From NCBI GenBank assembly GCA_950097265.1, contig CATNDJ010000001.1, positions 1 through 64,000 of the forward strand: DNA of 64,000 nt, in the 5' to 3' direction. The stretch is from an uncultured Oscillibacter sp. Lineage in GTDB: Bacteria > Bacillota > Clostridia > Oscillospirales > Oscillospiraceae. This document shows positions 28,249 through 44,465 of the stretch, in pieces. Within the stretch, counting starts at the first letter, position 1, and each line of letters begins with the position of its first letter. Under the pieces are notes generated by a model. It had not been told where the DNA came from, ran no database searches, and was given only the letters and a program-made list of their open reading frames with translations. A program made the position numbers and the translations under genes.

Positions 28249-28298
28249 AATTTACCTCCATTCCGTTCACTACAGTTGCATCTGTGATTCTATTTATA

Positions 28299-28327: not shown

Positions 28328-28370
28328 CAACAGGGGGGACCCCGATTCAAAATTTTCCGGGCTGCCATGT

Positions 28371-29216: not shown

Positions 29217-30343
29217 GTGACCTCCTCCTTCTCTTTTGTAAGATCAAATTCTCGCCAGTCCCCAGGCCGGTCCTGGAGAACGGTGTAGGTACAGCAGGCC
29301 GTGCGGTGACGAACGGTGAAGTTCTGTCCCAGCAGTTTCTTTGCCAGGGGGCGCTTGATCTCCACCGCAACGATGCCCTCCGGGTAGGGCTCCAGATCAC
29401 TGATGTCGATTTCCGGCTTTTCCGGTTCAACCCGGTACTTGGCAACCAGCCGATAGTCCCGGGGCCTGTCGCCGGGAACATACACATACACGTTTTTCCT
29501 CCGCTGGAACAGAAAAACGCCCAGCCCCGCTAACAGCAAAAGCGGAATGAGACAGAGGACTGCCGTGATGATCCGCCGGGGCGTTGCGGCCGCCGCCGAA
29601 CCGGAAATTGCTGCGGGCGTGGTCTCCTCCCCGACATAGACTACTGTATAGGTGATGCTGTCCACGCCGGAGGCTGTCACTTCGCCCTTGTATTCCGCCG
29701 TAGTGACATAGCCAGTTGCGACCTTGCTGCTGGTGGAGGCGGAGTAAGTAGCCACCGCCTGATAGGAGGCCGGGGCCAAGGTATCGCCCACCAAGTCGGT
29801 CCCCGTAACCTGCCAGGTAACGCCGGAGAGTTTAAGCGTCATCCCGTTTTTCACAGTGGTTGCGGGAACATAGGACATATCGTTTCGGTCCACCGGACCA
29901 ATTGTCTTGGTAGCGGTGACGGTGCCATACTGCGTGGTATAGTCCGCCGCCACAGTGGAAATCGTTGTATGATCCAGGGCCAGTTCACCGGAATACTCCC
30001 CATCGTCATAGGGGACGCTGGGGGCCAGCTCCGCCAGGATTTTGTCCAGGTTATTGCTGGCGGTTTCCACCGTGACCGTTTCCGTCACGGATTTGCTCTC
30101 CAGGAAAGCGTGTTCGTCTTTCGTGGTGAAGGCCCAGGTATAGGTAAAGCCGTCGTAGTCAAACGACGGCTCCTTCAATGTCTCCGGGTCTTTCTCCGGC
30201 GGCAGAACATAGGTCTTCACAATGCGCTGCTGCCCGTTCAGATTTTCCACCACCAGATTGTCCGGGACCTCTGCGGCGAGGGCGCTGGTAGTCATGGCAA
30301 AGGCCAGAACCAGCGCCAGCACCAGAGATTTCAGATGCTTCAT
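29213..30343 (-). CDS. Secreted single-span membrane protein of locus B
   Basis: A 376-residue protein. A signal peptide (1-23, ending A-L-A-A) is followed by an extracellular beta-rich region (about 24-260) with many Thr/Val/Tyr strands, a membrane helix (about 270-292), a basic stop-transfer (FQRRKN) and a cytoplasmic tail of about 85 residues. No known domain recognised. AAAGGAG precedes the ATG at 30343; a longer frame lacks a site. It overlaps the sortase start. It may be a structural or sensor part of the transfer apparatus, or a surface component processed with the sortase; both are inference. Confidence 0.7.
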   Translation of the reverse strand: MKHLKSLVLALVLAFAMTTSALAAEVPDNLVVENLNGQQRIVKTYVLPPEKDPETLKEPSFDYDGFTYTWAFTTKDEHAFLESKSVTETVTVETASNNLDKILAELAPSVPYDDGEYSGELALDHTTISTVAADYTTQYGTVTATKTIGPVDRNDMSYVPATTVKNGMTLKLSGVTWQVTGTDLVGDTLAPASYQAVATYSASTSSKVATGYVTTAEYKGEVTASGVDSITYTVVYVGEETTPAAISGSAAAATPRRIITAVLCLIPLLLLAGLGVFLFQRRKNVYVYVPGDRPRDYRLVAKYRVEPEKPEIDISDLEPYPEGIVAVEIKRPLAKKLLGQNFTVRHRTACCTYTVLQDRPGDWREFDLTKEKEEVT

Positions 30344-30353
30344 AGGCGCTCCT

Positions 30354-31988
30354 TTACAGATTTTGTTTGATGATCCGGGTAATGCTTCCGACCGCCACGC
30401 CCTGCTCTTCATCCAGCCGGGTGACGGCGAAGCTGACGTCATCCCCCTTGCCGGGGGTACGACGGTCATAGCAGGAGTGAGCGATGGCGTTGACGCCGTT
30501 GTTGAGGCGGACATACAGCACGCCGCCCCGCACATCGGTGACACGGCCAGCGTACCGGCCCTGCCGCACACACTTCTTCAGGTCGTCTGCGGCGGTGGAG
30601 GCAGAGGTGCTGCGCACATCAGCGGTGATGGACAGATCCTCCACCGTGGTGCCGGTGATCTTCTGTACCCGGACCAGGATGCGGTCGCCCACATGGTAGT
30701 GCTCGGCGGCGTCGCCCACCCAGGCGCGGGACAGGCCCCGGGCCAGGATGGCGCACTCCACACCGAACACCTCCACCCGGACCACCTTCTCGGCCACCGC
30801 CACCACCCGGGCCTGTACCACCCGGCCCTCATAGATCATGGGCTCGCCCCGCTCGTCTTTATCCAGGTAGAACGTCTGGCGCTTGCGGTACATGGCGTCC
30901 TTGCGGCTGGCGACCACGCTGCGGCTCTTGTTCTCGTGACCCTTCACGATGAAGTCGATCTCGGAACCCAGCCGGGCGGTGAGGATGCCCCGCATACGGG
31001 ACATCAGCTCCTGGAACTCCGCGCCGGAGGGGACGCGGCCGGTGAACAGCATCATCTCCTTAACGGGGATCGCCACCCGGAAGCCCTTGTAGTTGACCAC
31101 GGCAACGGTCAGGCCGGATTCCGTCCGCTCCACGCCGTCCAGGGTGCCAGTGAGGATGCGCCGGGTCCAGTGGGCGTTCTGGATCTCATGCCAGATGATG
31201 GCCTCCTGTTCCTCCGCCGTCTGTACCTCGTCTCTGGCCTCAATGGTCAGCACCCGGTCACGGCGGGAGTCAGCGGCGGCGGTGGTGGCAGCGGCGCTCT
31301 CCGTGTGGCGGGACCGGCCTCTGGGACGCCGGGGCAGGGCAGACTCGCTCATACCGTCCTCCACTCCATCGGGAACGGCGGTAGGTACAGGGCCGCCGGA
31401 CGGTTCCTCGCCGGGGGGCGGGTCCAGCGTCAGAGGCTCATCAGCATCGGCCCCGCCCTGGCCCGTCTCACCCAGCTCCTGGAGCAGCGCCCCGTACTCG
31501 GGATCGTCACTCTCCGGCCCCGGCTCCTCCTGGGGCGGCTGGGAACCGGCGGCGTCACCTGTATCGGGGAAGGGGTCCTCCTCACCTGCGGGGAAATTGG
31601 GGGGCATATCGCCCCACTGCGTACCATCAGACGGGGGCCCGTCAGCGTTGAGGGCCTCACCGGACGCGCTGTCGCCGGGCTGGGCCTCACCGTCAGGGGG
31701 CATGTCTCCGGGCTGGGCCTCACCATCAGAGGGCATATCGCCGGGCTGGGCCTCACCATCAGAGGGCATATCGCCGGGCGGCTCCTCACCAGCGGGGGGA
31801 TCGGCGGGCAGACCATCGGACGGGGCATCCCCATCGGCGGGGATGCTCTCTCCCTCCTCACTGGGGGCGGCGTCCGGGAGGGGACAGGACTCCGGGAGCT
31901 GGCCGGCGCTCTCCTCTCCGCCGGTCTCGGCGGCGGTCAGGGCCTCCACAGGCTGTTCGTCAGGGACCACAGTTTTCTTTCTGGGCAT
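30354..31988 (-). CDS. S1-like RNA-binding protein with acidic repetitive N-terminus (locus B)
   Basis: A 544-residue paralogue of the locus A gene at 4218-5654. It begins MPRKK; about 10-225 form a Pro/Glu/Asp/Gly-rich region that includes three 11-residue repeats of the form DGEAQPGDMPS. The folded part (about 240-544) has OB/S1-like strands: TGTLDGVERTESGLTVAVVN, YEGRVVQARVVAVAEKVVRV, then GRYAGRVTDVRGGVLYVRL and a final NGVNAIAHSCYDRRTPGKGD. AAAAGGAGG precedes the start. In this locus it lies directly downstream of virD4, so the link to the coupling protein is closer than in locus A. A nucleic-acid-binding role in transfer is inference. Confidence 0.72.
   Translation of the reverse strand: MPRKKTVVPDEQPVEALTAAETGGEESAGQLPESCPLPDAAPSEEGESIPADGDAPSDGLPADPPAGEEPPGDMPSDGEAQPGDMPSDGEAQPGDMPPDGEAQPGDSASGEALNADGPPSDGTQWGDMPPNFPAGEEDPFPDTGDAAGSQPPQEEPGPESDDPEYGALLQELGETGQGGADADEPLTLDPPPGEEPSGGPVPTAVPDGVEDGMSESALPRRPRGRSRHTESAAATTAAADSRRDRVLTIEARDEVQTAEEQEAIIWHEIQNAHWTRRILTGTLDGVERTESGLTVAVVNYKGFRVAIPVKEMMLFTGRVPSGAEFQELMSRMRGILTARLGSEIDFIVKGHENKSRSVVASRKDAMYRKRQTFYLDKDERGEPMIYEGRVVQARVVAVAEKVVRVEVFGVECAILARGLSRAWVGDAAEHYHVGDRILVRVQKITGTTVEDLSITADVRSTSASTAADDLKKCVRQGRYAGRVTDVRGGVLYVRLNNGVNAIAHSCYDRRTPGKGDDVSFAVTRLDEEQGVAVGSITRIIKQNL
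31678..31776. repeat. Three tandem 33-bp repeats in the S1-like gene (locus B)
   Basis: Units at 31678-31710, 31711-31743 and 31744-31776. Units 2 and 3 are identical over 33 bases and unit 1 differs at a few positions. They encode DGEAQPGDMPS-type repeats. Near-identity shows a recent expansion. Confidence 0.92.
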
Positions 31989-31994
31989 AAATTG

Positions 31995-33920
31995 TTACTC
32001 CTCCTTTTTCGGTTTTGATAAAATGGAATCTTTGGTTGCGGTGACCACCCGCTGCCCTGACTTCTGAACCGGCTTTGCGGCAGAGCGTCTGGGCGGGGGC
32101 GGCGGCGGGGACACCGGCTCCTCGGCCGGTTCTCCGGGGGGCTCGGCTGGTATGGGCGGCACCAGGGGTTCTGTCTTCGCCGATGCGGGCGGCTTTGCCG
32201 GCGGCGCCTTTTTGGCCGGGGCTTTCGGGCGCGGCGGTTTCGACTTGGCCGAAATAGGAGCCGCCTGCTCCTTCTTGCGGCCTTCGGCCTGCCAGTCGGG
32301 GATGTGGGAGGCGGCCTTGCTCGGGTGCAGCTTCTTGGATTCCGGGTGCTTGGAATAGTCGTACTTATCAACCTCCAATACTTTTTTGCCCCGGAGGATT
32401 ACCAGGGCGCGGTCTATGTCCATGCGCAGCACTTCATCCATGGTCATCAGCTTGCGCTTGCCTACGCCGCTGGTCTCCCGGTACTCCGGCGTATAGTTGG
32501 AGATGCGCCAGGTGCCCAGCTGCTTGGCCTTGCTGGTGACGGCAATACTGGCCTCGCCGGTGCGGTCGGAAATGAACTGCGCGGTCAGGGCGTCGGTACA
32601 GCCGAGAAACAAGGTGATGTCGCAGTTGCCCAGGATCTCCTGCCACTGGTTGTAGGGATAGCGGTTTTGGAGACCGGCGAGATTCTGGAACACGCAGGAC
32701 ATGGAGATGTTCCGGGAACGGATGACGCTGATTTTCCGGGACAGGTCGGGGATGACCCCGCAGGCGCACAGCTCCTCGCCCAGCACATGGACGGGAACAG
32801 GGAGCGCCCCGCCGGGACAGTTTTGGTCAGCGTACCGCACCAGCTTGATGAAAATGAATGACAGAAACAGCGAGGACAGGAAATCAAAGGTGCTATCCTG
32901 GTCGCTGGTGATGCAGTAGTAGGCGCAGGGCTGTTTGCCCGGCAGCTCCAGGTCGATTTCATCAAAGCCGGTGATGTTTCGGATGTCCTGATTTTGGAAC
33001 ACCTGGAGCCGGGAGCCCAAACCGATGATGACGCCGCCACGGACACTTTCACTGGACTGCTTGAAAATGCTGTAGGGGGCCTTGGCCGGGTGGGAGATAG
33101 GGAGCACGTCGAACAGAGCGTTCAATTCTTTTTCGCTGCTTGTGGCGAGGAGCTGATAGACCTCCCCAATGTTGCGTCGGTCCTCCGGGTAGCCCCGTTC
33201 CACATAAAGTACCAGGGCCTTCAACAGATTCATTTCAGCGTTGTCCCAGAAATGGTCTCCCTGCCCGTTGCCGGTGTTTTTAATGATGACGTCGCAGAAA
33301 AGCTGGGCCATCAGCTCCTGGCCCTCGATTTCGGACAGGCAGTTCCAGGAATCGGAGGCGGCGGGGGTCACCAGATTGAACACCTTCACCGTGTACCCCT
33401 GATCCCGGAGGTAGGCGCTGCTTTTTTCGTAGAGCTCTGATTTGGGATCACAGATAATGAGGCTGGACCTCCGGGCGGCACTTTGCAGGATCATATTCAT
33501 GCAAAAGGCCCTTGTTTTCTTTGATCCGCTGGCCCCGTACACCGCCAGATTACCATTGAACCGGGTCTTATCCGGGACGCAGATCACTTCGCCGTCTATC
33601 TCACCCAGGATGATGCCGTGGTGCTTGCGGATATTGGGAACCAGGTCCAGCACACCCTTCAGCTCCTTTCTGGTCATAAAGCCCGCCGTGCCGTAGGTGC
33701 CCTTGTTGGAGTAGATCAGATTGCGCTCCTGGTCGTATGCGCCGGTTTCGCTGTACCCCATCCGCATGACCATGAAAATCAGCACACCCAGCGCCGCTAT
33801 GCAGCCACCCACCCCGTACAGGCCGTAGGGCCAGCGGAACACGGCGGCGATACAGGCAAAGAAGCCGGAATCGGGAAACTCCGGCGAGGTGCCGAAGGTC
33901 CCGCCCGCCGCCTGCCACAC
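31995..33920 (-). CDS. VirD4/TraG-type coupling protein (locus B), start uncertain
   Basis: At least 641 residues. The ATPase region aligns with locus A virD4, including HHGIILGEIDG, SDSWNCLSEIEGQELM and a FLSSLFLSF block. The Walker A equivalent is GASGSKKT (about 128), with Lys where the P-loop normally has Gly. The Walker B region reads VLGEELCACGVIPDL, with Glu in place of the usual Asp. The first conventional start is GTG 33920, but the frame stays open to 34043 and codes for an obvious membrane helix (LAIIIPIALGALLYGGGYIA) before it, with GAGAGGAG at 34037-34044. The true start may be a rare codon near 34023-34031. The upstream gene overlaps. The Pro/Lys-rich tail spans about 540-641. 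Confidence 0.88.
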   Translation of the reverse strand: MWQAAGGTFGTSPEFPDSGFFACIAAVFRWPYGLYGVGGCIAALGVLIFMVMRMGYSETGAYDQERNLIYSNKGTYGTAGFMTRKELKGVLDLVPNIRKHHGIILGEIDGEVICVPDKTRFNGNLAVYGASGSKKTRAFCMNMILQSAARRSSLIICDPKSELYEKSSAYLRDQGYTVKVFNLVTPAASDSWNCLSEIEGQELMAQLFCDVIIKNTGNGQGDHFWDNAEMNLLKALVLYVERGYPEDRRNIGEVYQLLATSSEKELNALFDVLPISHPAKAPYSIFKQSSESVRGGVIIGLGSRLQVFQNQDIRNITGFDEIDLELPGKQPCAYYCITSDQDSTFDFLSSLFLSFIFIKLVRYADQNCPGGALPVPVHVLGEELCACGVIPDLSRKISVIRSRNISMSCVFQNLAGLQNRYPYNQWQEILGNCDITLFLGCTDALTAQFISDRTGEASIAVTSKAKQLGTWRISNYTPEYRETSGVGKRKLMTMDEVLRMDIDRALVILRGKKVLEVDKYDYSKHPESKKLHPSKAASHIPDWQAEGRKKEQAAPISAKSKPPRPKAPAKKAPPAKPPASAKTEPLVPPIPAEPPGEPAEEPVSPPPPPPRRSAAKPVQKSGQRVVTATKDSILSKPKKEE

Positions 33921-34006
33921 ATCGTAGTTATAAAGGAATTGAGCGATGTAGCCGCCCCCGTAGAGCAGAGCACCCAGGGCGATGGGGATAATGATAGCCA
34001 GCTTGA

Positions 34007-35149
34007 TCAGTTGTTTTCGGGAGATAGGAACACACTCCTCTCATACGCTTCAAAGTCGATACACTGGATGTCAACGTCCGGGCAGCAGACCTGACGCATG
34101 GCTTCCGCCTGGAAATCAAAGCAGAACAGCGTACCCGGCCAGTCCATTTTCTCCAGGGCGGCGTTGAACCGATAGATGCGGGGCATATCGCAGGTGTAGC
34201 CAAACAGTACCGCCGCCTCACCGTCTATGGCGTCGTTCTCAATCACCCAGCCGGGGCGGGGCGGCTTGAAGCCCTTTTGTAAAATGCCGTCCAGAACCGC
34301 CTTTTCGCCGGGGTCACACAGCAGTTGAAGGATGACCTCGCCGTGATGGTCGCTGGGCAGATAGCAGAACGGCTCAAACTCGCGGCTCAGAACAAAGCAG
34401 CTGTGGCGCTTATCCACGCCCACGCCCATCAGAGGGGCCATCTGCCCCATGTCCGAGGCAAATATAATGGCTGCTTGTTTGGCCTGTTTGAGTTGGGCCG
34501 GGAGCCGGGTCTGACAAAGCTCCATCTCCAGCAGGGCCTTGAGCCGCAGTTCTGCCTTGTCCTCCCACTTCATCTGACTGGAGCCAGTGTTGTAAATGGT
34601 GAACAAGCTGCCGCCCGCCAGCAGAACGCCCGTCGAGCGGGAGCCGCGGACTTTAACGGCCTGTGCGCCCAAGTCCTTGACCTCTCTGGAGCTGTAATAA
34701 GCGGGCCGGTCAAGGGGCGTCAGGTCATCGTGCGGCGTGGGGCTGAACAGCGCCGGCTTTTCCCAAGGCAGAACAGACACATCCGCATTGAGCATTGTCA
34801 CCAGCACCTCGGCCATCCGGTGCAGGCGCAGACGGCGGGTGATTTCCGATTTGAGCTGATTGGTCTCGGTACTGCCGGAGAGATAGGGCAGAAATTGATC
34901 CGGCCAGCACTCCACCAGCAGCCGTTTTGCGGCGGCGGTCAGTCGAAGGCCACGAACGCCATTGCGGTAGAATGTCCGCAGAAGATTGTCCCGTTTGAGC
35001 CGTTTGACCGCATACTCCTTGTAGGTGTCAGAAGCTGGGAGACGGCTGACCAGGGCGGCGGGCAGTTCGCCGGACAGAGCGGTGAGAGCCAGAACCAGGC
35101 CGGGAAATGTGTCCAGGGCGGGCAGCACCCGCCCATCCGCTTCCGACAT
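34007..35149 (-). CDS. Winged-helix protein upstream of VirD4 (locus B)
   Basis: A 380-residue paralogue in position of the locus A gene at 9959-11071. The N-terminal 80 residues read as a winged helix (LVLALTALSGELPAALV, then YKEYAVKRLKRDNLLRTFY and RGLRLTAAAKRLL). A mixed domain follows with IIFASDMGQMAPLMG in the middle and a C-terminal LFGYTCDMPRIYRFNAAL. No catalytic motif is recognised. A strong GGAAGGAGG precedes the ATG. The 3' end overlaps the 5' end of virD4, as in locus A, which suggests that the two products act together. Confidence 0.65.
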   Translation of the reverse strand: MSEADGRVLPALDTFPGLVLALTALSGELPAALVSRLPASDTYKEYAVKRLKRDNLLRTFYRNGVRGLRLTAAAKRLLVECWPDQFLPYLSGSTETNQLKSEITRRLRLHRMAEVLVTMLNADVSVLPWEKPALFSPTPHDDLTPLDRPAYYSSREVKDLGAQAVKVRGSRSTGVLLAGGSLFTIYNTGSSQMKWEDKAELRLKALLEMELCQTRLPAQLKQAKQAAIIFASDMGQMAPLMGVGVDKRHSCFVLSREFEPFCYLPSDHHGEVILQLLCDPGEKAVLDGILQKGFKPPRPGWVIENDAIDGEAAVLFGYTCDMPRIYRFNAALEKMDWPGTLFCFDFQAEAMRQVCCPDVDIQCIDFEAYERSVFLSPENN

Positions 35150-35177
35150 GATTTCCGCCTCCTTCCCATGATTTTTT

Positions 35178-35317
35178 TACCGAGGGGGCTACAGCTTCGG
35201 TATTTTTTCGCTGACCCGGCATGGAAAAAACCGCTGATTTTCAGGGATTCCCGGGCCGTAAAGCCATATCCCGTTTCTCAGCCTCAAAAAAAGCCAAAAT
35301 GGGATATGACCTTTTTT
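35178..35317 (+). terminator. Two plus-strand hairpins with T runs between minus-strand genes
   Basis: Hairpin 1: TACCGA (35178-35183) with TCGGTA (35197-35202), followed by TTTTTT. Hairpin 2: CATATCCCGTTT (35265-35276) with AAATGGGATATG (35297-35308), 12 pairs with one G-U, followed by ACCTTTTTT. Both have their T run on the plus strand, opposite to all genes here. They would stop antisense transcription or end a small plus-strand RNA. The 197-base gap 35150-35346 holds nothing else I can support. Confidence 0.5.
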
Positions 35318-35346
35318 CGGAAAATGAAACTTTTTGGGCAGGTTTT

Positions 35347-36027
35347 CTATGACCCCTTCGGGCCGTCCTGGAGTTGTACCCCCCGCTCCGCCAGCCATGT
35401 TGGGAAGCGGGGCGTGTCCATGATGAACATACGGGTACAGTCCGTCTCGCCCAGCTCCGTGGTATGGTAGACGTCGCAGAGCAGTCCGCCGTCATCGGTC
35501 AAAAGCCAGGCCCCCACCGCGTCCAGGTACTGCTTAATCTCCAGATTGTCATAGTCCCGCACCCGGCGCTCCGGGAGGTCACGGCAGTAGGTGTGAGAAA
35601 AGCACACAACGCAGTGCCGGAACCGCCGGACAGTATGGCTTTTGACGTATTGCTCCAGCGCCGCGGTGAGCGGGTCGATCAGGTACTCCGTGCTCTGAGA
35701 CTGCCTGCGCTTGGGGAGCAGACAGGGCAGGGTAATCTCAAAAATGCCGCCCCGCTGCTGGATGTCGATACCCTGCATGGCGGCAGCGGAGGTCAGATAT
35801 TCGCTCTTTTTCACGTTTGTGCTGGCATAGAGCAGATGGCGCAGCCGGCAGGTGATGGTCTCCGCCCGCAGAGCCGCGTCGGTGGACAGCACCTCGTAGT
35901 TGTCCGGGTAACGCTGGATGTCTGTGGTATTCATGGCATACAGTGCGCTGTTCAGGCGCTGTATGTCATCTAAAATGGATGTAATCCGCTGAGAAATAAC
36001 GCTTCGGGTCAAGGTGCTTGGACTCAC
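35347..36027 (-). CDS. Mobile-element protein with RusA-like acidic motif (locus B)
   Basis: A 226-residue counterpart of the locus A protein at 11752-12429. The C-terminal half carries VRDYDNLEIKQYLDAV with D158, D160 and N161, then LTDDGGL with D178 and D179. This is the RusA pattern D-x-D-N...L-D-A...D-D with the catalytic spacing of that family. The N-terminal half is helical, with an I-F-E-I-T-L-P-C-L-L strand before the motif. The start is uncertain: GTG 36027 lies on the GGAAGGAG site, TTG 36012 is a little far from it. The gene overlaps its upstream neighbour. Confidence 0.65.
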   Translation of the reverse strand: MSPSTLTRSVISQRITSILDDIQRLNSALYAMNTTDIQRYPDNYEVLSTDAALRAETITCRLRHLLYASTNVKKSEYLTSAAAMQGIDIQQRGGIFEITLPCLLPKRRQSQSTEYLIDPLTAALEQYVKSHTVRRFRHCVVCFSHTYCRDLPERRVRDYDNLEIKQYLDAVGAWLLTDDGGLLCDVYHTTELGETDCTRMFIMDTPRFPTWLAERGVQLQDGPKGS

Positions 36028-36545
36028 TCCTTCCGATAATATTCCACGTCCCCCTCCAGGGACACGGTGCAGTAACCGTTGACATTAGGGATTTGCAGTG
36101 CCTCGATCTGCTCTGCGGAATCAACAATCACCAGATAGCGGGAGGGCTGTTCTCCAGAGTTCTTCAAGGCCTGGGTTACAAGGACCTCCCGTCCCTGGGC
36201 GATATAGACGATCTCGTAAACCTCGCTGTCAGCGAAGAAGATAATCTTTGCGGGAAAATCGCCAATCGAGTGGTACTCCACCTGCCCAATGAAGTCCGCA
36301 AGGACCCAGACGGCGGCAAACAGAGTCCAGTCCACATTCCCCATGTTGTCCGGCGCGGCGCAGTAATAAGGCTCCTCCCACCAGATGCGGCCCTGCTTCA
36401 CAAGGTACGTCAGCAGATTCCTGATCTTATCATCCTTGCCGGGGTGGAGCCGAAGAAGCTGCTTTTCCGTTAAAATCTGGTACATGGAGATGTCCCGCAA
36501 GAGGGCGGCGGCCTCCCTTTCATAGATCTGTGCGCGTGTTTTCAT
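36024..36545 (-). CDS. Winged-helix-type protein (DUF5697-like), locus B
   Basis: A 173-residue protein. The first 65 residues form a winged helix (MKTRAQIYEREAAALLRDIS, then ILTEKQLLRLHPGKDDKIRN and LVKQGRIWW). The C-terminal part (FPAKIIFFADSEVYEIVYIA) matches the locus A gene at 5688-6218 in order and pattern. AGAGGTGA precedes the ATG. The gene lies directly downstream of the 11-bp-period repeat array, so it could bind that array or be controlled by it; this is inference. Confidence 0.65.
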   Translation of the reverse strand: MKTRAQIYEREAAALLRDISMYQILTEKQLLRLHPGKDDKIRNLLTYLVKQGRIWWEEPYYCAAPDNMGNVDWTLFAAVWVLADFIGQVEYHSIGDFPAKIIFFADSEVYEIVYIAQGREVLVTQALKNSGEQPSRYLVIVDSAEQIEALQIPNVNGYCTVSLEGDVEYYRKE

Positions 36546-36565
36546 GGATGTTCACCTCTGCTGTG

Positions 36566-36760
36566 CGTATTATCGCCGTATTACAGACGTATTGCTTGGC
36601 TTGCTTTAGGTGCCAGTTTTGGCCTTGTGCGTGTTATTTCAGCATTATTTCCGCATTAAAAATCCGCTTCCGTATTAACGCCGTATTATTGACGTATTAT
36701 TTTTGTCCATCATTCATGGTTCGGTTTTATGCGTATAAATGCCGTATTATCTCCGCATTA
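36566..36760. repeat. Iteron-like array: four triplets of CGTATTA at 11-bp spacing
   Basis: Heptamers matching CGTATTA (variants CGTGTTA, AGCATTA, CGCATTA, CGTATAA, CGTATTG) start at 36566, 36577, 36588; 36630, 36641, 36652; 36671, 36682, 36693; and 36732, 36743, 36754. Within every triplet the spacing is exactly 11 bases, about one DNA turn. Five copies besides the first two in triplet 1 are exact or differ by one base. The last copy contains the virB4 stop codon. The array fills the 212-base gap between virB4 and the winged-helix gene. It looks like a set of sites for a cooperatively bound protein: an origin, oriT or operator. Confidence 0.9.
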
Positions 36761-39658
36761 GGCACTCTGCTGACCGGATTTGTCCAGCAGTTCCTGAAGC
36801 TCCCGGCGGTCGGTAGTGATAAGCTCCTTCTCCATCTGACTACACTTGATTTCCACCGTCACGTTATTGTTGTTGGTGCTAATCAGGCCGCTGCCCCGCT
36901 CGAAGTGGGTGATCTCCATAACCTCCGCTTCGGACAGGTGCAGGATGGACTGGACACGCCGGGCCTCCTCTTCCTCCAGATTGAGCAAGATTTTCGTCTT
37001 GGCGTTGTTGATGATGCCCTTGCCGTACTTGCCGTCCTCCAGCGCAAAGAAGTCGTTGATGTCCTGGGTAGCGCAGATGGCAGAGCCGCCGTAGCCTCGG
37101 ATGATCTTGAAAATCTCCAGCACAAACTCGGCGGCCAGACGGTTGCTGTTGGCCCCAATGAGCTGCCAGCACTCGTCAATGTAAATGGCCTTTTCCTCGG
37201 TGCGGTTCTCTTTGGCCTTGTCCCAGACAAAATCAAGCGCCACGAACATCCCCTCCGTCAGCAGGTCGCCGGTCAGTTCGGAGATGTCCAGCACCGTGTA
37301 CTTGTTGTCCAGAGACACGTTGGTGGGCTGGTTGAAGGTGCGGGCGGAGCCGTTGACCAGCCGGTTGATGATATTTGCCAGCCGCCTTGTCTCCTGGGAC
37401 TCCTTCAGCACCTCATACAAGTCCCCCAGCACCGGCATTGTCCGGTAGCGGCTGGGGTCGGTCGGGTCGTCCAGGGTGCTGTTCTCATGGGTGATGCCCA
37501 GTTTGGCATAGGTGCGGATCAGGGCGTCGTCCAAAAGCTGCCGCTCCTCATGGGTCATGTCGGGGATCAGCAGCGAGAAAAAGATATGGAGCCGCTGGAT
37601 TTTTGCCGCCAGCAGGGACTTCTCCACGCCTGGGCCGTCCAGCAGCTCGTCCACCGACTTGTCCACCTTGCGGATCTCCATGACATTGATGCAGTTTTTG
37701 GAGGCGGGAGAGATTTGGATGAACTCCCCGCCGATGTTGGAACAGGCCCGGTGGAACTCATGGCCCTTTAACGGGGCCACGATGAATACCTGGATGCCCT
37801 TCCGCCGCATACGGGTTGCCATCAGCTGCATAGTAAAGCTCTTGCCCGCGCCGCTGGTGCCCAGAATGGCGATATTGGCGTTTTTGTAGACCCGGGAATC
37901 GAAGATGTCCACGATGATCAGGGAGTTGTTGTGCTTGTTCACCCCCAGCAAAATGCCGTTGTCGTCGCACATCTCGTAGCTGGTGAAGGGGTAACAACTG
38001 GCCGCACCTAGGGTCAGCACGTTCCGTTTGGACCGCTCATAGAGGTGCTTTTCCAGAGCTACCAGCGGGAGTGAGGACAAAAAAGCCTGTTCCTGACAGA
38101 AGGAACAGGCCTGTACGTCCATATCCTGACTGAGTAGCAGCTTTTTCATCTCCGCGCACTTCCACTCCAGGTCCTCCACATTGTTGGCGGTGATGGTGAC
38201 CAGAAGGTTCAGATAATAGAAGTCCTCGTTGTTGCTCAGACCGTCTTTGAGGAGGTAGCCGCTGCGGATAGCTCCGTCCAGGTCGTCGAAGTCGGTGTTG
38301 GTATCGCTGGTCTCCTTGATCTTGCTGCGGTTGATGCGCAGCTGCTGGCCCAGCTTACGGATCATTCGGTCTTTGGGCTGCCGGGTCAGGAACATATCCA
38401 GGTCGATGCCGTCTCCAGCGTTCACCAGCAGACTGAGCCAGCCCGCTGGCACCTGGGTCTTGTAGCCGCCGGAGGGCACCAGCAGATAGGCGTAGTACAC
38501 GCCGTCAATGCAGATGTGCCGCCCGTGGGATAGATCGATGTGGTTGGGGGCGTAGAACTCATTCACCGGGATCTGGTCCACAGGTCGTCCGGCGGTTAGA
38601 TACTCGGCCACCACCTGCTTGGCCTTTTCCTCAAAGGGGCGCTCATTGCTTTCCTGGCGGCAGAGAACGTGGTACAGCACCTCCGCCGTGGCCTCGTTTT
38701 CGTCATCGTGGTTCAACACAACCGTATTTCCGCATTGGCGCAGGTAGTTGGCGGCGGTGCGGGCAGCGGTCTGGAGGGAGGCGATGGCCTCTTCCTCCTC
38801 CTGTCCTCGGCGCGTTCCGGGCAGCGGTTCATGCTCAAAAATCAAGAAAAACCGCCGGGTGATGGCCTCTCTGGAACCTAGTTGACGGATCAGCCGCAGG
38901 TAGTCCTCCTGGAGCATCCGGCAGTGGGGGTCGGTCTCCCGCTCCAGCTCCCGGCGCACCGCCTGCACATGGCGGTCAATGTCCGCCCGCTTGGTCAGCA
39001 CCTTGAACTGCACCTTTACCGGCGCGATTTTGAGGTAGCTGATAAAGGAGTAGATAATGCTGCGCTGCTCCTGGGCACTGCGCAGAAGGAAGTTGACCGG
39101 AACGACCTCCAGAATCTTCACATAGCGGCGGTCGCGGGTGTAGATGATACCGTGCTTGATGTTCTCCACCGGCACATAGTCCGCCAGCGGATTGAGGGGC
39201 TTTACTTCCGGGGCCAGGAAGGTTTTGAACCGATCCACTTTCCGGCCCTTCAAGTCTACCTCTACACGGTTCCGGCTCTTGGGTATCTCGCTGTCGTCTT
39301 CCTCCTTGGGGGCGCTGTGGCCCCAGCTGGGGAGCAGGCTCTTTTTCCCCCGGTCCGCGCCGTCCCTGTCCAGCGTCCGCCGGTTGCGGAGAAAGCTGAA
39401 AAATTGGAGAATGAACTCGGACAGGCTCCCGCCGCCAATGCCGATCAGGGCCACCAGCACCAGGGGCAGGGTGGTCAGGCACAGGACGATGATCCGGATG
39501 GTGAGGGAAAAGGGCAGTTTTAAGACCGGCACTCCTGTCAAAGCACCCAGGATGCCGGCCTCGATCACGTTGCGGGTCTTGAGCATCCCGCCCATCAGCG
39601 TACCGCCCTCAATAAAATTAGGGGGGATGATATAAACATCCCGTTCTTCTTGCCGCAT
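36758..39658 (-). CDS. PrgI-VirB4 fusion conjugation ATPase (locus B)
   Basis: A 966-residue protein. Residues about 1-105 correspond to PrgI: YIIPPNFIEGGTLMG at the start and two membrane helices near 28-75. A charged linker (about 95-150) leads into the VirB4 N-region (RDRRYVKILEVVPVNFLLRS, SFISYLKIAPVKVQF), then the core with Walker A GTSGAGKS near 600 and Walker B AIYIDECWQLIGAN near 830. In locus A these parts are three genes (15847-16155, 15176-15850, 12426-14390). The fusion implies that the PrgI part and the ATPase work in fixed proximity at the membrane. AAGGAGGG precedes the start. Confidence 0.94.
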   Translation of the reverse strand: MRQEERDVYIIPPNFIEGGTLMGGMLKTRNVIEAGILGALTGVPVLKLPFSLTIRIIVLCLTTLPLVLVALIGIGGGSLSEFILQFFSFLRNRRTLDRDGADRGKKSLLPSWGHSAPKEEDDSEIPKSRNRVEVDLKGRKVDRFKTFLAPEVKPLNPLADYVPVENIKHGIIYTRDRRYVKILEVVPVNFLLRSAQEQRSIIYSFISYLKIAPVKVQFKVLTKRADIDRHVQAVRRELERETDPHCRMLQEDYLRLIRQLGSREAITRRFFLIFEHEPLPGTRRGQEEEEAIASLQTAARTAANYLRQCGNTVVLNHDDENEATAEVLYHVLCRQESNERPFEEKAKQVVAEYLTAGRPVDQIPVNEFYAPNHIDLSHGRHICIDGVYYAYLLVPSGGYKTQVPAGWLSLLVNAGDGIDLDMFLTRQPKDRMIRKLGQQLRINRSKIKETSDTNTDFDDLDGAIRSGYLLKDGLSNNEDFYYLNLLVTITANNVEDLEWKCAEMKKLLLSQDMDVQACSFCQEQAFLSSLPLVALEKHLYERSKRNVLTLGAASCYPFTSYEMCDDNGILLGVNKHNNSLIIVDIFDSRVYKNANIAILGTSGAGKSFTMQLMATRMRRKGIQVFIVAPLKGHEFHRACSNIGGEFIQISPASKNCINVMEIRKVDKSVDELLDGPGVEKSLLAAKIQRLHIFFSLLIPDMTHEERQLLDDALIRTYAKLGITHENSTLDDPTDPSRYRTMPVLGDLYEVLKESQETRRLANIINRLVNGSARTFNQPTNVSLDNKYTVLDISELTGDLLTEGMFVALDFVWDKAKENRTEEKAIYIDECWQLIGANSNRLAAEFVLEIFKIIRGYGGSAICATQDINDFFALEDGKYGKGIINNAKTKILLNLEEEEARRVQSILHLSEAEVMEITHFERGSGLISTNNNNVTVEIKCSQMEKELITTDRRELQELLDKSGQQSA

Positions 39659-39667
39659 AGGCCCTCC

Positions 39668-41374
39668 TTATATCCGATCCTTGCGTCTGGGCGGGTCGGG
39701 AAGTTTTTTGATGATGCGCTCATGGTAGGCCACAGTATCGTCCGGGGCCATGTAGGGCTTGCGCTCCACGGCATCTTGGGCGTACTGCTTGTACCACTGC
39801 GTTCCGTCGGCAGAGACAATTTTGGTATAGTCACCAGAAGGAGCGGTGTATTGATCCACATGGTACATCGCAAAGGAAAGTCCTTCGCTCGCTCCCGATA
39901 CGGTTTCTACGCCGGTGATCCGGCCCCGGCCAATCTCCACATCGGAGTAGATAGGGGCGTCCCGGCTTCCAATGCCGGGAGAGGTATAGCCCATATACGA
40001 AGACAGAGACTGGGCCGCCATGTCGCCGGTAATACTGCCAGCCACCTCGCCGCGGGCCACAGAGCCAATCACATCATTGGCAAAGCTGCCGCCGGCGGCC
40101 AGGGAATGGGAGAATACCATGCCGCCCAGAGTGGGCCGTGCCCCCGCGCCAGCTTGAAAGCGGTTGGTATGCACCCGCTCACTGGAGGATGTGGTATGGA
40201 CCGTCTGGGAGGAGCGTTCCATGTGGGTCTCCGCACGCTGCTCGCCGCCGGAAACAACCGTATTTTCCCTGTGAACACTCCCCTCTGCGCCGCCAGCATA
40301 CACATTTTCGGTCTGCGGCGCATGGACGGTGTTCTCACCGCCGGTAATGACAATACCCTCTTGGGGCGGCACACTGTCAGCAGGAATACTCTCCGGCGGT
40401 GTAACCACAGTCTGCGGTACTGAATCGACAGGTATGCTCTCAGGCGGCGTACCCACAGTCTGCGGCGGGCCGGCCGGAGGAACAGGGGCTGGAGGCTCGC
40501 TGCCAGTGAGGACAACGCCCTCCTGGGGCGGTGTCCCGCCGGGTGCAAGGCTGGTAGGGGGCATATCTACCGCCTGCGGCATCTGGCTGGAGGGCGGAAC
40601 AGGGGCTGGGGGCTCGCTGCCGGTGAGGATGACCCCTTCCTGGGGAGGTGTCCCGCCGGGCATAGGGGCAATAGGCGGCACATTCTCCATAGGGACAGCC
40701 GGGGATGCGGTCACGTTGTCAGTTTGGATCACATCAGCCTGGGGCGGCGTTCCAACAGGAGTGCTGTTCTCGGTATGGATGGGGGAGCCGCCAGCATGTA
40801 CCTCGCTGTTGATATGGGTGTCCGCGTCCACCTGTGCGGCGGTCTGCGCGGCGCTAGCAGCACTGGAGGCTGCGGCCTGCCGCACCTGGTTTTGAGCGGT
40901 ATGGACAGCGGAGGTCTGGGTCGTGGCTGTTCTGACCGCGCTGTTGGTGATATGCCGGCCAGCCATACCGATCAGTCCGCCTTTGAAAAATCCTGCCATT
41001 CCAGAGGAACCGGACTTTCCTGCGGTACTGCCGGCGGCGGAACCGGTGCGGCCAGCACCAGCCCCACGCCCTCCTCCCGCAACCATTGTGACAGCCCTCA
41101 CGGCGATCATGGCCTCGGCCAGCATGGAACCGCCGGTGCGGCCCACGTTGACTCCCAGTGTCGCCATAAAGCTGTCGATCTTCTGCGAGACTTTCAGGAA
41201 CGCAACGGCGCACAGAAACCAGATCAGCACGTTGCCGGTGACCGCCTCCTTGCCGGACGACGCCACCTGGGCCTCCACCTCACTCTCCGTAATGGCAAGA
41301 GCCGGGACGCACAGCGCCGAAAGAACCAGCACCGTCAGGACCAGGATAGTCAAAATGCGTTTGAATTTCTTCAT
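39668..41374 (-). CDS. Secreted/membrane protein with VirB6-tail-like region (locus B)
   Basis: A 568-residue protein. A signal peptide (1-27) is followed by one membrane helix (about 48-65), a G/A/S-rich stretch (about 95-185), a Pro-rich repeat region (about 190-370) with several copies of GGTPPQEGV(I/V)LTGSE, and a C-terminal soluble part (about 440-568). The C-terminal region resembles the tails of Gram-positive VirB6/TrbL proteins and the gene follows virB6 directly, so I read it as the second half of a split VirB6. The start at 41374 has GGAAGGAGA; the longer frame to 41497 overlaps virB6 and lacks a site. Confidence 0.65.
   Translation of the reverse strand: MKKFKRILTILVLTVLVLSALCVPALAITESEVEAQVASSGKEAVTGNVLIWFLCAVAFLKVSQKIDSFMATLGVNVGRTGGSMLAEAMIAVRAVTMVAGGGRGAGAGRTGSAAGSTAGKSGSSGMAGFFKGGLIGMAGRHITNSAVRTATTQTSAVHTAQNQVRQAAASSAASAAQTAAQVDADTHINSEVHAGGSPIHTENSTPVGTPPQADVIQTDNVTASPAVPMENVPPIAPMPGGTPPQEGVILTGSEPPAPVPPSSQMPQAVDMPPTSLAPGGTPPQEGVVLTGSEPPAPVPPAGPPQTVGTPPESIPVDSVPQTVVTPPESIPADSVPPQEGIVITGGENTVHAPQTENVYAGGAEGSVHRENTVVSGGEQRAETHMERSSQTVHTTSSSERVHTNRFQAGAGARPTLGGMVFSHSLAAGGSFANDVIGSVARGEVAGSITGDMAAQSLSSYMGYTSPGIGSRDAPIYSDVEIGRGRITGVETVSGASEGLSFAMYHVDQYTAPSGDYTKIVSADGTQWYKQYAQDAVERKPYMAPDDTVAYHERIIKKLPDPPRRKDRI
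40480..40700. repeat. Internal repeats in the VirB6-tail-like gene
   Basis: Two long copies of about 100 bases (roughly 40481-40585 and 40596-40690) encode GGTPPQEGV-LTGSEPPAPVPP, with additional shorter copies at both sides. Within the gene they form a Pro-rich spacer of variable length. Confidence 0.75.
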
Positions 41375-41388
41375 AGGGTCTCCTTCCG

Positions 41389-42099
41389 TCAGAGTGAAAG
41401 CGGATTGGCAATGAACGCGCCCACCATGCTTACGAACAGCCGCAGGCACCAGGCGTTCATCAGAAGCAGAAAAATCTGCCCCGCAAACATCCTGCACCAG
41501 CTTTTGAAGATGTTGGATGTGGCCTGAGACACGCCCATGGCAAAGGCCACCGGCGCGGTGAACACCATGACGCCCAGCAGCACATACCGCTCCGCCGCCT
41601 CAAACAACAGTTTTAAGTAGTTCCATGCCAGAATGAGGAGCAGAATCAGCACGATCAGAGCCACAGCGCCGTTGGCACATACACCGATGATGGTCAGCAA
41701 GACGGAGTTGAAGTCCGCAAAGCTCAGGTTGGGGAGTGCGGAGGTCAGTATCCAGTCGTAGGGTGTACCGCCGATGTCCAGCGCCATGTCCACGATTTGG
41801 TCGGAGTAGTAGGCCAGGGCGATAAACAGGACGGAACGAATGCTCAGTTTTATTGGGTCCTCCGCCTCGCCGCCTCCGCCAATGCCGAAGTTCTTGAACA
41901 GGTTCCACACCCAAATCAAGAGGATCAGGCCGATTGCCAGAGCCACAAAGATGTCGTACATGGTTTCCGCAGCTGGAAAGTATCGCAGGAATATGCTCAT
42001 GTCGCAGCCCAGCGCGCCCAAAACTGATGTGTTGATCAAATCCAGGCCGTGCATGACTTGTTCCGCGATCCACTCTACAATGCCGTCTAAAATGCCCAT
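41389..42099 (-). CDS. VirB6/TrbL-like channel protein, membrane part (locus B)
   Basis: A 236-residue integral membrane protein with about six helices. The block AERYVLLGVMVFTAPVAFAM and the SWCRMF segment correspond to the membrane region of the locus A virB6 (17634-19583), so the two are paralogues. Unlike locus A, it stops right after the membrane part; the following gene at 39668-41374 supplies the tail-like part. No strong ribosome binding site is visible, and the ATG lies 6 bases past the virB2 stop, so it is probably translated by coupling. Confidence 0.85.
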   Translation of the reverse strand: MGILDGIVEWIAEQVMHGLDLINTSVLGALGCDMSIFLRYFPAAETMYDIFVALAIGLILLIWVWNLFKNFGIGGGGEAEDPIKLSIRSVLFIALAYYSDQIVDMALDIGGTPYDWILTSALPNLSFADFNSVLLTIIGVCANGAVALIVLILLLILAWNYLKLLFEAAERYVLLGVMVFTAPVAFAMGVSQATSNIFKSWCRMFAGQIFLLLMNAWCLRLFVSMVGAFIANPLSL

Positions 42100-42105
42100 G
42101 GACGG

Positions 42106-42486
42106 TTAGGGCGTCCACTGACCGCCGGCGAAGAAGGGGGTAATGTAGGACATGATGAAGCCCAGGGAGTTGAGGATGATCCAGGTGATGACGATGCGCT
42201 TCAGCCAGGCCCGGGATTCGTCCACCGTCCGGCCTGAGCGGGAGAAGTTCATCAGCAGCAGGGCCACAGCCGCCGTCACGATGGCCGCAATAGTGGAGAT
42301 GCCCAGGATCTGGGTGTAGACATCCTTCATCACCTCGCTGGCCTTCGTCCAGAGGGTATCCGCAGCCAGGGCAGGCTGGGCCAGCACCGTTGCCATAGAG
42401 GTTCCGAAGAAGCCCATATAGAGGATGCGTCCGTAGTTACGATGCTTTTTCTGCGGAGTTTCAGAGAGCGTGGTTTTTCGGTTCAA
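42106..42486 (-). CDS. VirB2/TrbC-like pilin-type membrane protein (locus B)
   Basis: A 126-residue protein with a signal-like helix (about 22-41, ending Q-P-A-L-A-A), then helices at about 58-78 and 95-118 and the W-L-K-R-I loop shared with the locus A protein at 19611-19988. TTG 42486 is the start, with AAAAAGGAGG nine bases before it. It is the first gene of the locus B transfer operon and is preceded by a leader with two terminators. Confidence 0.78.
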   Translation of the reverse strand: MNRKTTLSETPQKKHRNYGRILYMGFFGTSMATVLAQPALAADTLWTKASEVMKDVYTQILGISTIAAIVTAAVALLLMNFSRSGRTVDESRAWLKRIVITWIILNSLGFIMSYITPFFAGGQWTP

Positions 42487-42515
42487 TCAGTTACCTCCTT
42501 TTTGTCTCGGAAAAC

Positions 42516-42546
42516 GAAAACAGCGCCCATAAGCGTTGGGCGCTGT
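42516..42546 (-). terminator. Leader terminator B before virB2 (locus B)
   Basis: On the minus strand CAGCGCCCA and TGGGCGCTG form a 9-bp stem with a 7-base loop, followed by TTTTCGTTTT. It ends only about 30 bases before the virB2 start codon. Confidence 0.85.
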
Positions 42547-42564
42547 CCTTTGCGGCGGGAGCAT

Positions 42565-42588
42565 GAAAAAAGACGCCCATCGGCGTCC
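42565..42588 (-). terminator. Leader terminator A before virB2 (locus B)
   Basis: On the minus strand GACGCC and GGCGTC form a stem with a 4-base loop, followed by TTTTTT. A second 7-bp helix (GCGGGAG with CTCCCGC, 42588-42594 and 42555-42561) encloses stem and T run, an arrangement that allows alternative folds. Confidence 0.8.
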
Positions 42589-42632
42589 TCCCGCTGTCGT
42601 TTTCACTTTTGATTACAGTTTTGAGCATACTT

Positions 42633-42661
42633 AGTCTAACATATATAGATTCCCGTGTCAA
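42633..42661 (-). promoter_or_regulatory. Promoter of the virB operon leader (locus B)
   Basis: Read on the minus strand: TTGACA (42661-42656), a 17-base spacer, TAGACT (42638-42633). Transcription would start near 42626 and run about 140 bases through both leader terminators before virB2. Confidence 0.75.
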
Positions 42662-42723
42662 TTCCAAAGCCGTCCCAATTTCGTCCTAAAACTGTCCCAA
42701 TTTTGTACCACGGACAGGCAAAA

Positions 42724-43257
42724 TCAAATTTCCGCCTCCATATCAGGGAAAAAGTCGGCCAGCAGCGTCATACAGTCCTTGGAGGAATAGCCCCAGAGAA
42801 TGGAACTCAGGGCCGCTACCGCCTGCTCCCGCTTCCGGTAATAGGTTGTCCGGCCTATGTCCCGGATATGCGGACGGAGCTGTTCGATGATCTCATTCAC
42901 GTTGTCCAGCTGCTGCGGGGACAGGAAGGTATAGTACAGAAGCCAGTAGTAGGTCTCGCCGCTCTTGTGCCGGGTGCGGAGGATGTCCACCGCATTGTTG
43001 AGCAGCTTGAGCATCTGGTTACTGCGCTCAATGCACCGGGCATGGCTCTCGATCTTCGTGCCGCCCAAGTCGGCCCCAGCCAGATAGGCGGACTCCAGGA
43101 AGTCCTCAATGGTGCTGCCGAACTCGATCTCAAACTCCTTTTTCACCTGCTGGACGGACAGCTCCATGCTCCAGACCACATCCCGGTACTTTTTCAGTAG
43201 CCGCCAGGTGTCGTGGTAACGGGAATCCTCCGGCTTTTTCGCGTGTTTATTTGCCAT
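42724..43257 (-). CDS. Sigma-70 region 4-like regulator (ArpU/DUF1492 type)
   Basis: A 177-residue, mainly helical protein. The C-terminal part (about 115-160) reads as a sigma region 4-type helix-turn-helix (NVNEIIEQLRPHIRDIGRTT, then YYRKREQAVAALSSILWG). Such proteins regulate late operons of phages and mobile elements. The ATG at 43257 has AGGAGG 12 bases upstream; a TTG at 43269 is too close to it. It lies just upstream of the virB promoter and leader, so it is a good candidate activator or anti-terminator of the transfer genes. The link is inference from position. Confidence 0.7.
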   Translation of the reverse strand: MANKHAKKPEDSRYHDTWRLLKKYRDVVWSMELSVQQVKKEFEIEFGSTIEDFLESAYLAGADLGGTKIESHARCIERSNQMLKLLNNAVDILRTRHKSGETYYWLLYYTFLSPQQLDNVNEIIEQLRPHIRDIGRTTYYRKREQAVAALSSILWGYSSKDCMTLLADFFPDMEAEI

Positions 43258-43505
43258 TTTTAGGTTCAACCTCCTAAATTATTGTAGTCGTTTTACCGCA
43301 TATAACTATTTATGAGATCCACACTCGCAGACCATTACTAATTGTCGGCCCGAATAACTACCAGATACTAGATGTTTCCAACTCAATTCGGGTGGGCTTC
43401 CACTCACTGCCTACCATTTCGTCGTTGCAAAGTCCACTCAACTGCGAAAACTGCGTTCACCCTCTTCCTCTCCCTGCAAAATCATCCGATTTTATAGGGT
43501 TCCCA

Positions 43506-44402
43506 TTATCTCTCCGCCATATCGTGGGCAACGAGGGCAGTATAGTAGCTTCCTATGGTGTTGGGGGCATTGAACAGCACCGCCAGCAGGTATTTCTTGA
43601 TGTTGCGAATTTTCGTGGTGTTCTCCCGCATACAGTCCATGACGAACTCAATATGGTTGCTGTTTAGTTTCAGCAACTTGGCTTTTACCAGTTCGGCTGG
43701 GTAATCGTCACCGGCCACCCGGATTGTCTTTCGGGCTGTGCAAACAGTTTCCACCAGCAGCTCCACAATGCCGTCCAATTCCTCCAGGTCAATCTGCGAG
43801 TAGCGCAGGAGATGGTCGTACTCAATATTCTTCTTGATGATGTCCCGAAAAATCTCAACAGCGCTCTGCGTAGCCGCTTCTGTCCCTTTCCTTTCTGGCG
43901 GCGAAGCCGCAACAGCCCCAGCCGTTTCAGCGGGAGGGTGTGAAAGGGAGGGAAAGGAATGGGTACTTGATCGGTCAGTAATAGCTTGGTCTTTAGTTAC
44001 TCTATCTTTATTTAGTTGCGTTGGATTTACCGTTGCCGGTTTTACCGTTGCCGGGTTTTCCGTTGTCGGGTTTTCCGACAACGGTTTATCCGACGACGGC
44101 GACAAAAAAACAGGATGTTCGTGGATGATGTACTCGTTGCTGCTGAACTTGCCGCCCTTGTCCGTGGTCTGGTGGCGCTCGATGTACCCGGCCCGCTCCA
44201 ACTCATTGACGGCGGAACGAATGGCGTCTTTGCTCTCCCGGTTGATGTAGCACAGGCCGGACAGGGTATAGTCCCAATCCTCCGGAAGAGACAACATTTG
44301 TGATAATAGGCCCTTGGCTTTCAGAGACAGAGATTTGTCCCGCAGATGGAAATTTGCCATCACGGTATAGTCCTTGTTTTTCTCCACGCGGAATACCGGC
44401 AT
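43506..44402 (-). CDS. Replication initiator-like protein (winged helix plus DUF6017-type C-terminus), locus B
   Basis: A 298-residue protein. Residues 1-100 form a winged-helix domain: MPVFRVEKNKDYTVMANFHL, LSLKAKGLLSQMLSL, then ESKDAIRSAVNELERAGYIE. The middle (about 105-165) is Thr/Pro/Asn-rich and is encoded by tandem 15-base repeats. The C-terminal 110 residues resemble the C-terminus of the locus A initiator. AAAGGAG precedes the ATG at 44402. Such proteins are annotated as replication initiators or plasmid regulators in Clostridia elements. An intrinsic terminator lies 30 bases upstream, so expression must start within or pass through that terminator. Confidence 0.75.
   Translation of the reverse strand: MPVFRVEKNKDYTVMANFHLRDKSLSLKAKGLLSQMLSLPEDWDYTLSGLCYINRESKDAIRSAVNELERAGYIERHQTTDKGGKFSSNEYIIHEHPVFLSPSSDKPLSENPTTENPATVKPATVNPTQLNKDRVTKDQAITDRSSTHSFPSLSHPPAETAGAVAASPPERKGTEAATQSAVEIFRDIIKKNIEYDHLLRYSQIDLEELDGIVELLVETVCTARKTIRVAGDDYPAELVKAKLLKLNSNHIEFVMDCMRENTTKIRNIKKYLLAVLFNAPNTIGSYYTALVAHDMAER
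44021..44103. repeat. Tandem 15-bp repeats inside the initiator gene (candidate origin iterons, locus B)
   Basis: On the plus strand, units of the form CCGGTTTTACCGTTG follow each other: TTGGATTTACCGTTG, CCGGTTTTACCGTTG, CCGGGTTTTCCGTTG, then two diverged units containing TTTTCCGACAACGG and TTTATCCGACGACGG. The last two convert part of the unit into an inverted form (CGTTGTCGG next to CCGACAACG). They lie in the centre of the gene, as in locus A. Confidence 0.8.
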
Positions 44403-44430
44403 GACGCTCCGCTCCTTTCGATATGTAGGC

Positions 44431-44465
44431 AAGAAAAGAGCCGCAGATGTTCAAAATCTGCGGCT
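44431..44465 (-). terminator. Terminator at the element edge before the locus B initiator gene
   Basis: On the minus strand AGCCGCAGAT and ATCTGCGGCT form a 10-bp stem, followed by CTTTTCTT. It stops transcription coming from rlmD into the element. Confidence 0.85.

Follow-up and report, generated by a model that had tools for sequence, protein, structure and literature searches.

The window analysed here is a stretch of 64,000 nucleotides from an uncultured Oscillibacter sp. (contig CATNDJ010000001.1), and this report concerns an array of short direct repeats at positions 36566-36760, inside a type IV secretion system (T4SS) gene cluster. The array lies in an intercistronic gap between two genes that are both encoded on the minus strand. 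On its 5' side is the gene for a PrgI/VirB4-type T4SS ATPase (36758..39658, minus strand), which is CD1110-like with a score below the NCBIfam cut-off. On its 3' side is the gene for a 173-aa protein of the DUF5697 family (36024..36545, minus strand; PF18954, E 2e-47), whose ATG is at 36545. This gene is followed on the same strand by a DUF6100 gene (35347..36027), and then by genes for a 380-aa protein, a VirD4-type coupling protein, and an S1-domain protein. From this gene order, we infer that the T4SS genes flanking the array form one operon. The 142-kb Vescimonas fastidiosa plasmid pMM35_02 (locus L150) carries annotated genes in the same order, and there the gene at the VirB4-type position is annotated as a PrgI family protein; the record of this plasmid is typed as non-mobilizable.

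Within the gap, twelve heptamers of the CGTATTA type (TAATRCG when read on the minus, coding strand) are grouped as four triplets, and in all four the internal spacing is exactly 11 bp. The proximal triplet (36566..36594; heptamer starts at 36566, 36577 and 36588) has its innermost heptamer just 5' of the Shine-Dalgarno sequence of DUF5697, read as AGAGGTGA in the leader (36546..36565) that runs from the array to the start codon. Triplet 2 (36630..36658; starts at 36630, 36641 and 36652) is the most degenerate of the four and includes AGCATTA (36641), the heptamer with two mismatches. Triplet 3 (36671..36699; starts at 36671, 36682 and 36693) consists of three exact copies, and in the distal triplet 4 (36732..36760; starts at 36732, 36743 and 36754) the outermost heptamer overlaps the end of the VirB4-type gene and includes its TAA stop codon (36758-36760). 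The triplets and the leader are given for the minus strand. Altogether, six of the twelve heptamers are exact and five carry a single mismatch. These coordinates agree with a preliminary description of this DNA in the number, grouping and spacing of the heptamers, and both borders bear out its statement that the array fills the gap between the PrgI/VirB4-type gene and a gene for a winged-helix protein.

The regularity had been proposed to exceed chance, and this was confirmed. In a whole-window ranking made for lag 11 (200-nt stretches, every 20 nt), the highest self-identity, 0.455, was observed at the array, and the lag-11 score of the gap was reached by none of 200 dinucleotide shuffles. 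A strict triplet pattern gave two matches in the genome from which the window derives (2.49 Mb, 139 contigs, 91.5% complete), both at the array, while the reversed-pattern control gave none. With a loose two-heptamer pattern (up to three mismatches), ten matches were found in the same genome, eight of them in the array, versus 5.1 expected; this count, equalled by 5 of 100 shuffles, is weak evidence taken alone.

For the comparison with relatives, 72 loci were collected, 71 of them with DUF5697, and 53 were left after near-identical copies were removed (L001 is the window). These provided a set of 32 gaps, each with an upstream frame of at least 100 aa and a length of 60-240 nt, in which some near-relatives remain and the gaps of L025 and L042 begin at a wrong-frame stop. 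A 7-nt near-repeat at lag 11 was present in 24 of the 32 gaps, window included, and at lags 22 and 30 in 14 each. Thirteen gaps (the window and 12 others) were picked by eye from the 32 for the presence of the motif and are referred to as class I; L028, nearly identical to L006, was omitted. Trained on these gaps, a weight matrix found 90 sites in them versus 2.0 in mononucleotide shuffles. When the true L021 gap was used, the count was 92 sites and 79 steps, of which 54 were exactly 11 bp and none was 10 or 12 bp. The steps longer than 11 bp (18-19, 22, 29-32, 39-42, 52, and 62-63 bp) cluster near whole helical turns, with a circular concentration R of 0.76 at 10.75 bp (p 0.0003, n = 18, near-duplicates removed), the period having been searched over 10-11.5 bp; this test was run without L009 and L010 as well, and with the L021 gap in its uncorrected form. 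Two close relatives differ from the window in length by exactly 11 bp: a further 11-bp unit is present in L009, and one spacer of L010 is 11 bp shorter. Because the steps are phase-locked and the length changes are of exactly 11 bp, the sites would be recognised as duplex DNA, from one face. The conservation in relatives with the same flanking genes that the preliminary description called for was therefore found, phase-locked in most array-bearing relatives, and this spacing supports its prediction that a protein binds along one face of the duplex.

Invariant positions number 68 of 84 in the sites, 20 of 32 in the 4-nt linkers, and 24 of 68 in the inter-cluster spacers. In the class-I gaps the upstream stop codon starts a site, with an intact TRCG core in 9 of 13 and a degenerate one in the other 4, and the distance from the last heptamer to the start codon is 15-32 nt in all 13. 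Clusters in several relatives have the palindrome TAATRCGYATTA as their last site, reverse sites lying 3 bases past the forward ones. The palindrome ATRCGYAT also precedes two distant DUF5697 genes (26% identical), with steps of 22, 21 and 21 in L013 and of 20, 31, 31, 21 and 23 in L044. In other DUF5697 clades, a RACGCC-type repeat occurs at lag 11 (L003, L034 and L035). In a divergent DUF5697 clade (L014 and L068), the gap before the DUF5697-like gene contains, as judged by eye, 17-bp inverted repeats with ACG cores, and these replace the direct ones.

Several counts associate the sites with the 5' end of DUF5697. Within 220 nt upstream of this gene we observed a mean of 3.7 ATRCG cores, versus 0.5, 1.0 and 1.2 in three control stretches, and at least two cores were present in 28 of 52 loci versus 7, 9 and 16 in the controls (L052, the remaining one of the 53, has no upstream sequence). 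Of 33 WATRCG pairs at lag 11 in 24 records (511,859 bases in total, near-copies among them), 30 were located between -300 and +60 of a DUF5697 frame. When 400 genomes were searched with a strict three-site pattern, 18 matches were obtained, distributed over 11 genomes; 11 matches (6 genomes) adjoin DUF5697, and 7 (5 genomes), among them the G213 array described below, do not, a number to be set beside the 3 of the reversed control. Genomes with a match to DUF5697 itself numbered 30 among 400 from the same family, 30 among 394 from the order, and 10 among 391 from the class. The position of the sites follows DUF5697 where another gene intervenes: in L031 the 60 nt after the VirB4 stop are siteless and sites occur directly before DUF5697, and in L053 palindromes precede DUF5697, and the 90 nt that follow VirB4 have none. 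L004, in which the upstream frame is not VirB4, has a variant site. Sites are thus conserved directly 5' of DUF5697 across relatives, as looked for in an autoregulatory operator.

An AlphaFold model of DUF5697, built from 37 sequences, reached a predicted local distance difference test value (pLDDT) of 91 and a predicted template modelling score (pTM) of 0.86. It contains a helix (4-22), a strand (24-26), helices 27-33 and 38-50, and two wing strands; the prediction is therefore a winged helix at about residues 4-62, followed by an alpha/beta, nuclease-like domain. As a predicted fold, this agrees with the winged-helix protein that had been proposed downstream of the array. A Foldseek search with the model gave one match below E 0.001 (VC1899, 3e-4, template modelling score 0.32 of the query), and the first part of the protein matched winged helices of an Rpa2 domain, a Z-alpha domain, and IclR regulators. 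Since VC1899, AddAB and Ecl18kI have the PD-(D/E)XK fold, the alpha/beta domain was labelled PD-(D/E)XK-like. Against viral models, two matches at E 0.001 or below were obtained, both to phage proteins without known function. The sequence profile matched HpaR, a MarR-type regulator, weakly (E 0.047). No publication on the DUF5697 family was found in the open-access library that was searched.

Phased by one helical turn and recurring in many related clusters, the repeats very probably serve as a docking strip to which a protein binds. We favour, at somewhat better than even odds, that it is a cooperative one-face operator array inside the operon, which would be bound by DUF5697 and would control DUF5697 itself. 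In this proposal, winged-helix monomers or dimers would be arranged head-to-tail along a single DNA face, with one at every helical turn, forming clusters of two to four that are mostly in helical phase with each other. The binder would most likely be DUF5697, the product of the gene directly after the array, and its putative target in duplex form would be TAATACGCATTA. Once bound in the middle of the operon, the protein might hinder the elongating RNA polymerase as a roadblock, or close the Shine-Dalgarno region; DUF5697 would thereby keep down its own production and perhaps also the expression of the downstream genes (DUF6100, the VirD4-type coupling protein, and the S1 protein). No sigma-70-like promoter was found in window positions 35900-37100, and a promoter search in 25 of the 32 gaps gave none better than shuffles (lowest p 0.26, L011), so that a classical promoter operator is not indicated; roadblock or Shine-Dalgarno occlusion by array-bound DUF5697 seems the simplest account. 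A hairpin followed by T residues at the DUF5697 junction was noted in 13 of the 32 gaps, including L050, L005, L034 and L007 (counted without a shuffle control), which would fit a control point at the VirB4-DUF5697 junction. Among the three functions offered in the preliminary description, an initiator-bound origin, an oriT (origin of transfer) accessory site and an operator, the operator is the best fit.

Several observations weigh against this interpretation. A strict site test (a lag-11 ATRCG pair or a palindrome) was passed by 25 of 40 strong DUF5697 loci and failed by 15. Among the failing loci, the RACGCC lag-11 variant is found in L003, L034 and L035, a single-copy RACGCC in L004 and L005, and unpaired cores in L012, and no clear array is present in the remaining nine (L025, L040, L041, L042, L045, L049, L050, L056 and L059). 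The arrayless L025 carries a DUF5697 protein that is 51% identical to that of the window, and in L049 the frame before DUF5697 is not VirB4 and the array was not seen. Some palindromes are out of phase, with steps of 82 (L058) and 37 (L053). Conversely, a clear five-site TAATRCG array occurs in genome G213 with no DUF5697 in view; it is located at a contig end (L103/L117, contig 19 near 25460), 5' of a tyrosine recombinase gene named by eye. As for the protein, the Foldseek matches restricted to the winged helix had probabilities of up to 1.00 with E above 0.04, so that their support is modest. Site class and DUF5697 sequence co-vary only loosely, and 9 of the 18 columns that separate the classes lie inside the winged helix, which makes up 37% of the length. 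Finally, the absence of a promoter might also indicate that the array is no regulatory site.

A link between such arrays and tyrosine recombinases, suggested by G213 and G078, was dropped: L122 and L123, two other recombinase relatives, lack paired sites, and in G078 a weak array is placed at the end of a coding frame. The G213 array may still be tied to its recombinase.

Further repeats with a similar period occur elsewhere in these elements. On the minus strand at 42633-42700, where the T4SS genes begin, a promoter-like TTGACA-17-TAGACT was noted, and 5' of it four TTGGGAC-type heptamers, two of them exact, at 11-bp spacing. A tag-anchored region with TTGG-type repeats, some degenerate, was present in 11 of 23 relatives' records examined. 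The TTGGGAC-type array looks like an activator site, with a binder other than that of the main array. In L077, L079, L080, L085, L087 and L090, other direct-repeat arrays of about 11 bp (types TTGTAGA, TTGTCAA, ATGGTGT, TTACGCC and TTAGCA) are located about 7-9.5 kb 5' of DUF5697 and are possibly integrase arm sites or promoter arrays. The window contains two separate T4SS gene sets (637-20643 and 27298-44432), both with VirB4-type, VirD4-type, S1-domain and initiator-type genes, and sortase, SpaA-type and CAP genes are present in the T4SS locus at 21371-44432 and in its relatives. An Rfam scan of 28000-45000 at gathering scores gave no match.

If the array is an operator at this junction, the protein that regulates the operon through it could also be another product of the element or of the host, and the candidates would be the 380-aa protein encoded two genes downstream, a 181-aa protein, or a host factor. 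Several proteins of the element have no family assignment, the TTGG-type array before the T4SS promoter implies that a second array-binding protein probably exists, and the G213 array is consistent with a binder other than DUF5697. However, where VirB4 is displaced, in L031 and L053, the sites still accompany the 5' end of DUF5697, and the same core is found beside DUF5697 proteins as distant as 26% identity; we consider another binder unlikely. It is less probable that the array and DUF5697 together make a centromere-like or transfer-docking nucleoprotein site, resembling TubR on tubC and perhaps also acting as an autorepressor. The combination of a winged helix with direct-repeat blocks, in a TubR/tubC-like arrangement, and the occurrence of the locus on the plasmid pMM35_02 are in favour of this possibility, but no tubulin-like match was obtained among the 39 window proteins scanned (some small frames were outside the scan), and in some relatives the array is absent or reduced to one or two palindromes. 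A stronger form of this idea, to which we give a slightly smaller chance, is that, in a class of Gram-positive T4SS elements, a DUF5697 winged-helix filament on the phased array would mark the DNA of the element for the adjacent VirB4 and VirD4, autoregulation being a mere by-product. Were this so, it would be relevant to DNA recognition by T4SS elements that have no obvious relaxase.

That the array is an iteron origin, or an oriT or relaxosome site, appears very improbable. Repeats of AATRCG at 11 bp were found inside genes of 20 viral contigs (L130-L149), and about 10 of 14 covering viral frames that were inspected resemble replication proteins, as judged by eye without a family search. However, these 20 viral stretches compare with 9 and 48 for permuted controls and 17 for a 10-bp version of the motif; because the control motifs are similarly common, the phage match is not specific, and this lead was rejected. 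In the window, the RepA_N gene of locus A contains direct repeats at 23-bp spacing (6656-6745, also given as 6656-6810) and the DUF6017/HTH_36 gene of locus B (43506-44432) contains 15-bp direct repeats (44023-44067), both candidate iterons. Iterons are expected in or beside an initiator gene, and the latter gene is about 7 kb from the array. Since both initiator-type genes found in the window hold their own iteron-like repeats, the initiator-bound origin proposed in the preliminary description is less likely. The oriT that it also offered is less likely because no relaxase match (PF03432 above the cut-off, or PF02486) was obtained near DUF5697, and because some relatives have no array. In 14 genomes, no PF03432 match above the cut-off and no PF02486 match was obtained within 50 kb on the same contig, a search with these two profiles whose reach is limited by contig breaks, several genomes being fragmented; one sub-cut-off PF03432 match was located 14 kb away in G275. 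L082 has no array before DUF5697, and none turned up in the 20 kb scanned. Nine of the 40 strong DUF5697 loci are without a clear array, so it is not essential to such clusters; these loci speak less against a regulatory site than against an origin or oriT that every cluster would need.

Least of all do we expect the repeats to function at the RNA level, in a leader controlling DUF5697 translation. The proximal site is near the Shine-Dalgarno sequence, 15-32 nt from the start codon in all 13 class-I gaps, the leader folds slightly better than its shuffles, with a z of -2.3 (2 of 200 shuffles were as good), and the hairpins with T residues in some relatives could belong to such a leader. In contrast, phase-locking to the helix, 11-bp length changes, palindromic sites, and the occurrence of RACGCC-variant sites in both orientations point to duplex DNA, and the Rfam scan did not return a known RNA. 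With DUF5697 as the probable ligand of an operator array, this uncharacterised family would gain a predicted fold, a proposed DNA target whose consensus is defined base by base, and a possible role in controlling a T4SS operon of gut Clostridia. The natural variants, with changed heptamers, 11-bp length changes or lost arrays, make cooperativity and specificity testable.

As far as the literature was searched, no description of this array was found in print. The form of the site has precedents, and the earlier statement that none was known does not stand. According to PMC5930380 and PMC10936776, the operators of SARP regulators (PimR, AfsR) consist of three heptameric direct repeats with 4-nt spacers, an 11-bp period, and cooperative monomers thought to bind one DNA face. 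The array of the window shares the heptameric direct repeats and the 4-nt spacers, and differs in having four triplets and another heptamer, in its location between two same-strand genes, and in that no promoter was found next to the repeats (35900-37100, 25 gaps). A SARP was rejected as the binder: the PF03704 (BTAD/SARP) profile had no match in the genome of the window (91.5% complete), while 6 of 14 control genomes matched. Sites of the PHO box and OmpR-PhoB family are bound by winged-helix proteins. The PHO box, two 7-nt direct repeats with a 4-nt spacer (PMC3131613), is a second precedent for the 7-4-7 form seen in the array. In contrast to it, the array is unlike CTGTCAT in sequence and is not ahead of a recognisable promoter, and its predicted binder matches DUF5697 only, not Response_reg or Trans_reg_C. 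No Trans_reg_C match was found among the locus B proteins scanned; the single one among the window proteins scanned is in locus A (1704-2372).

As regards the proposed effect, studies on LacI roadblocks indicate that a protein bound inside a transcribed region lowers read-through (PMC4132739). The likeness would be a DNA-bound protein within a transcribed region; here the site is a natural multi-site array and the effect a proposed one. By arrangement, the nearest parallel is TubR on tubC (PMC5016525). The partner TubZ has no counterpart among the scanned window proteins, DUF5697 has an extra, predicted nuclease-like domain, and the site is inside a T4SS gene cluster; in both systems, a winged-helix protein (in DUF5697, a predicted fold) is associated with blocks of direct repeats 5' of its own gene.
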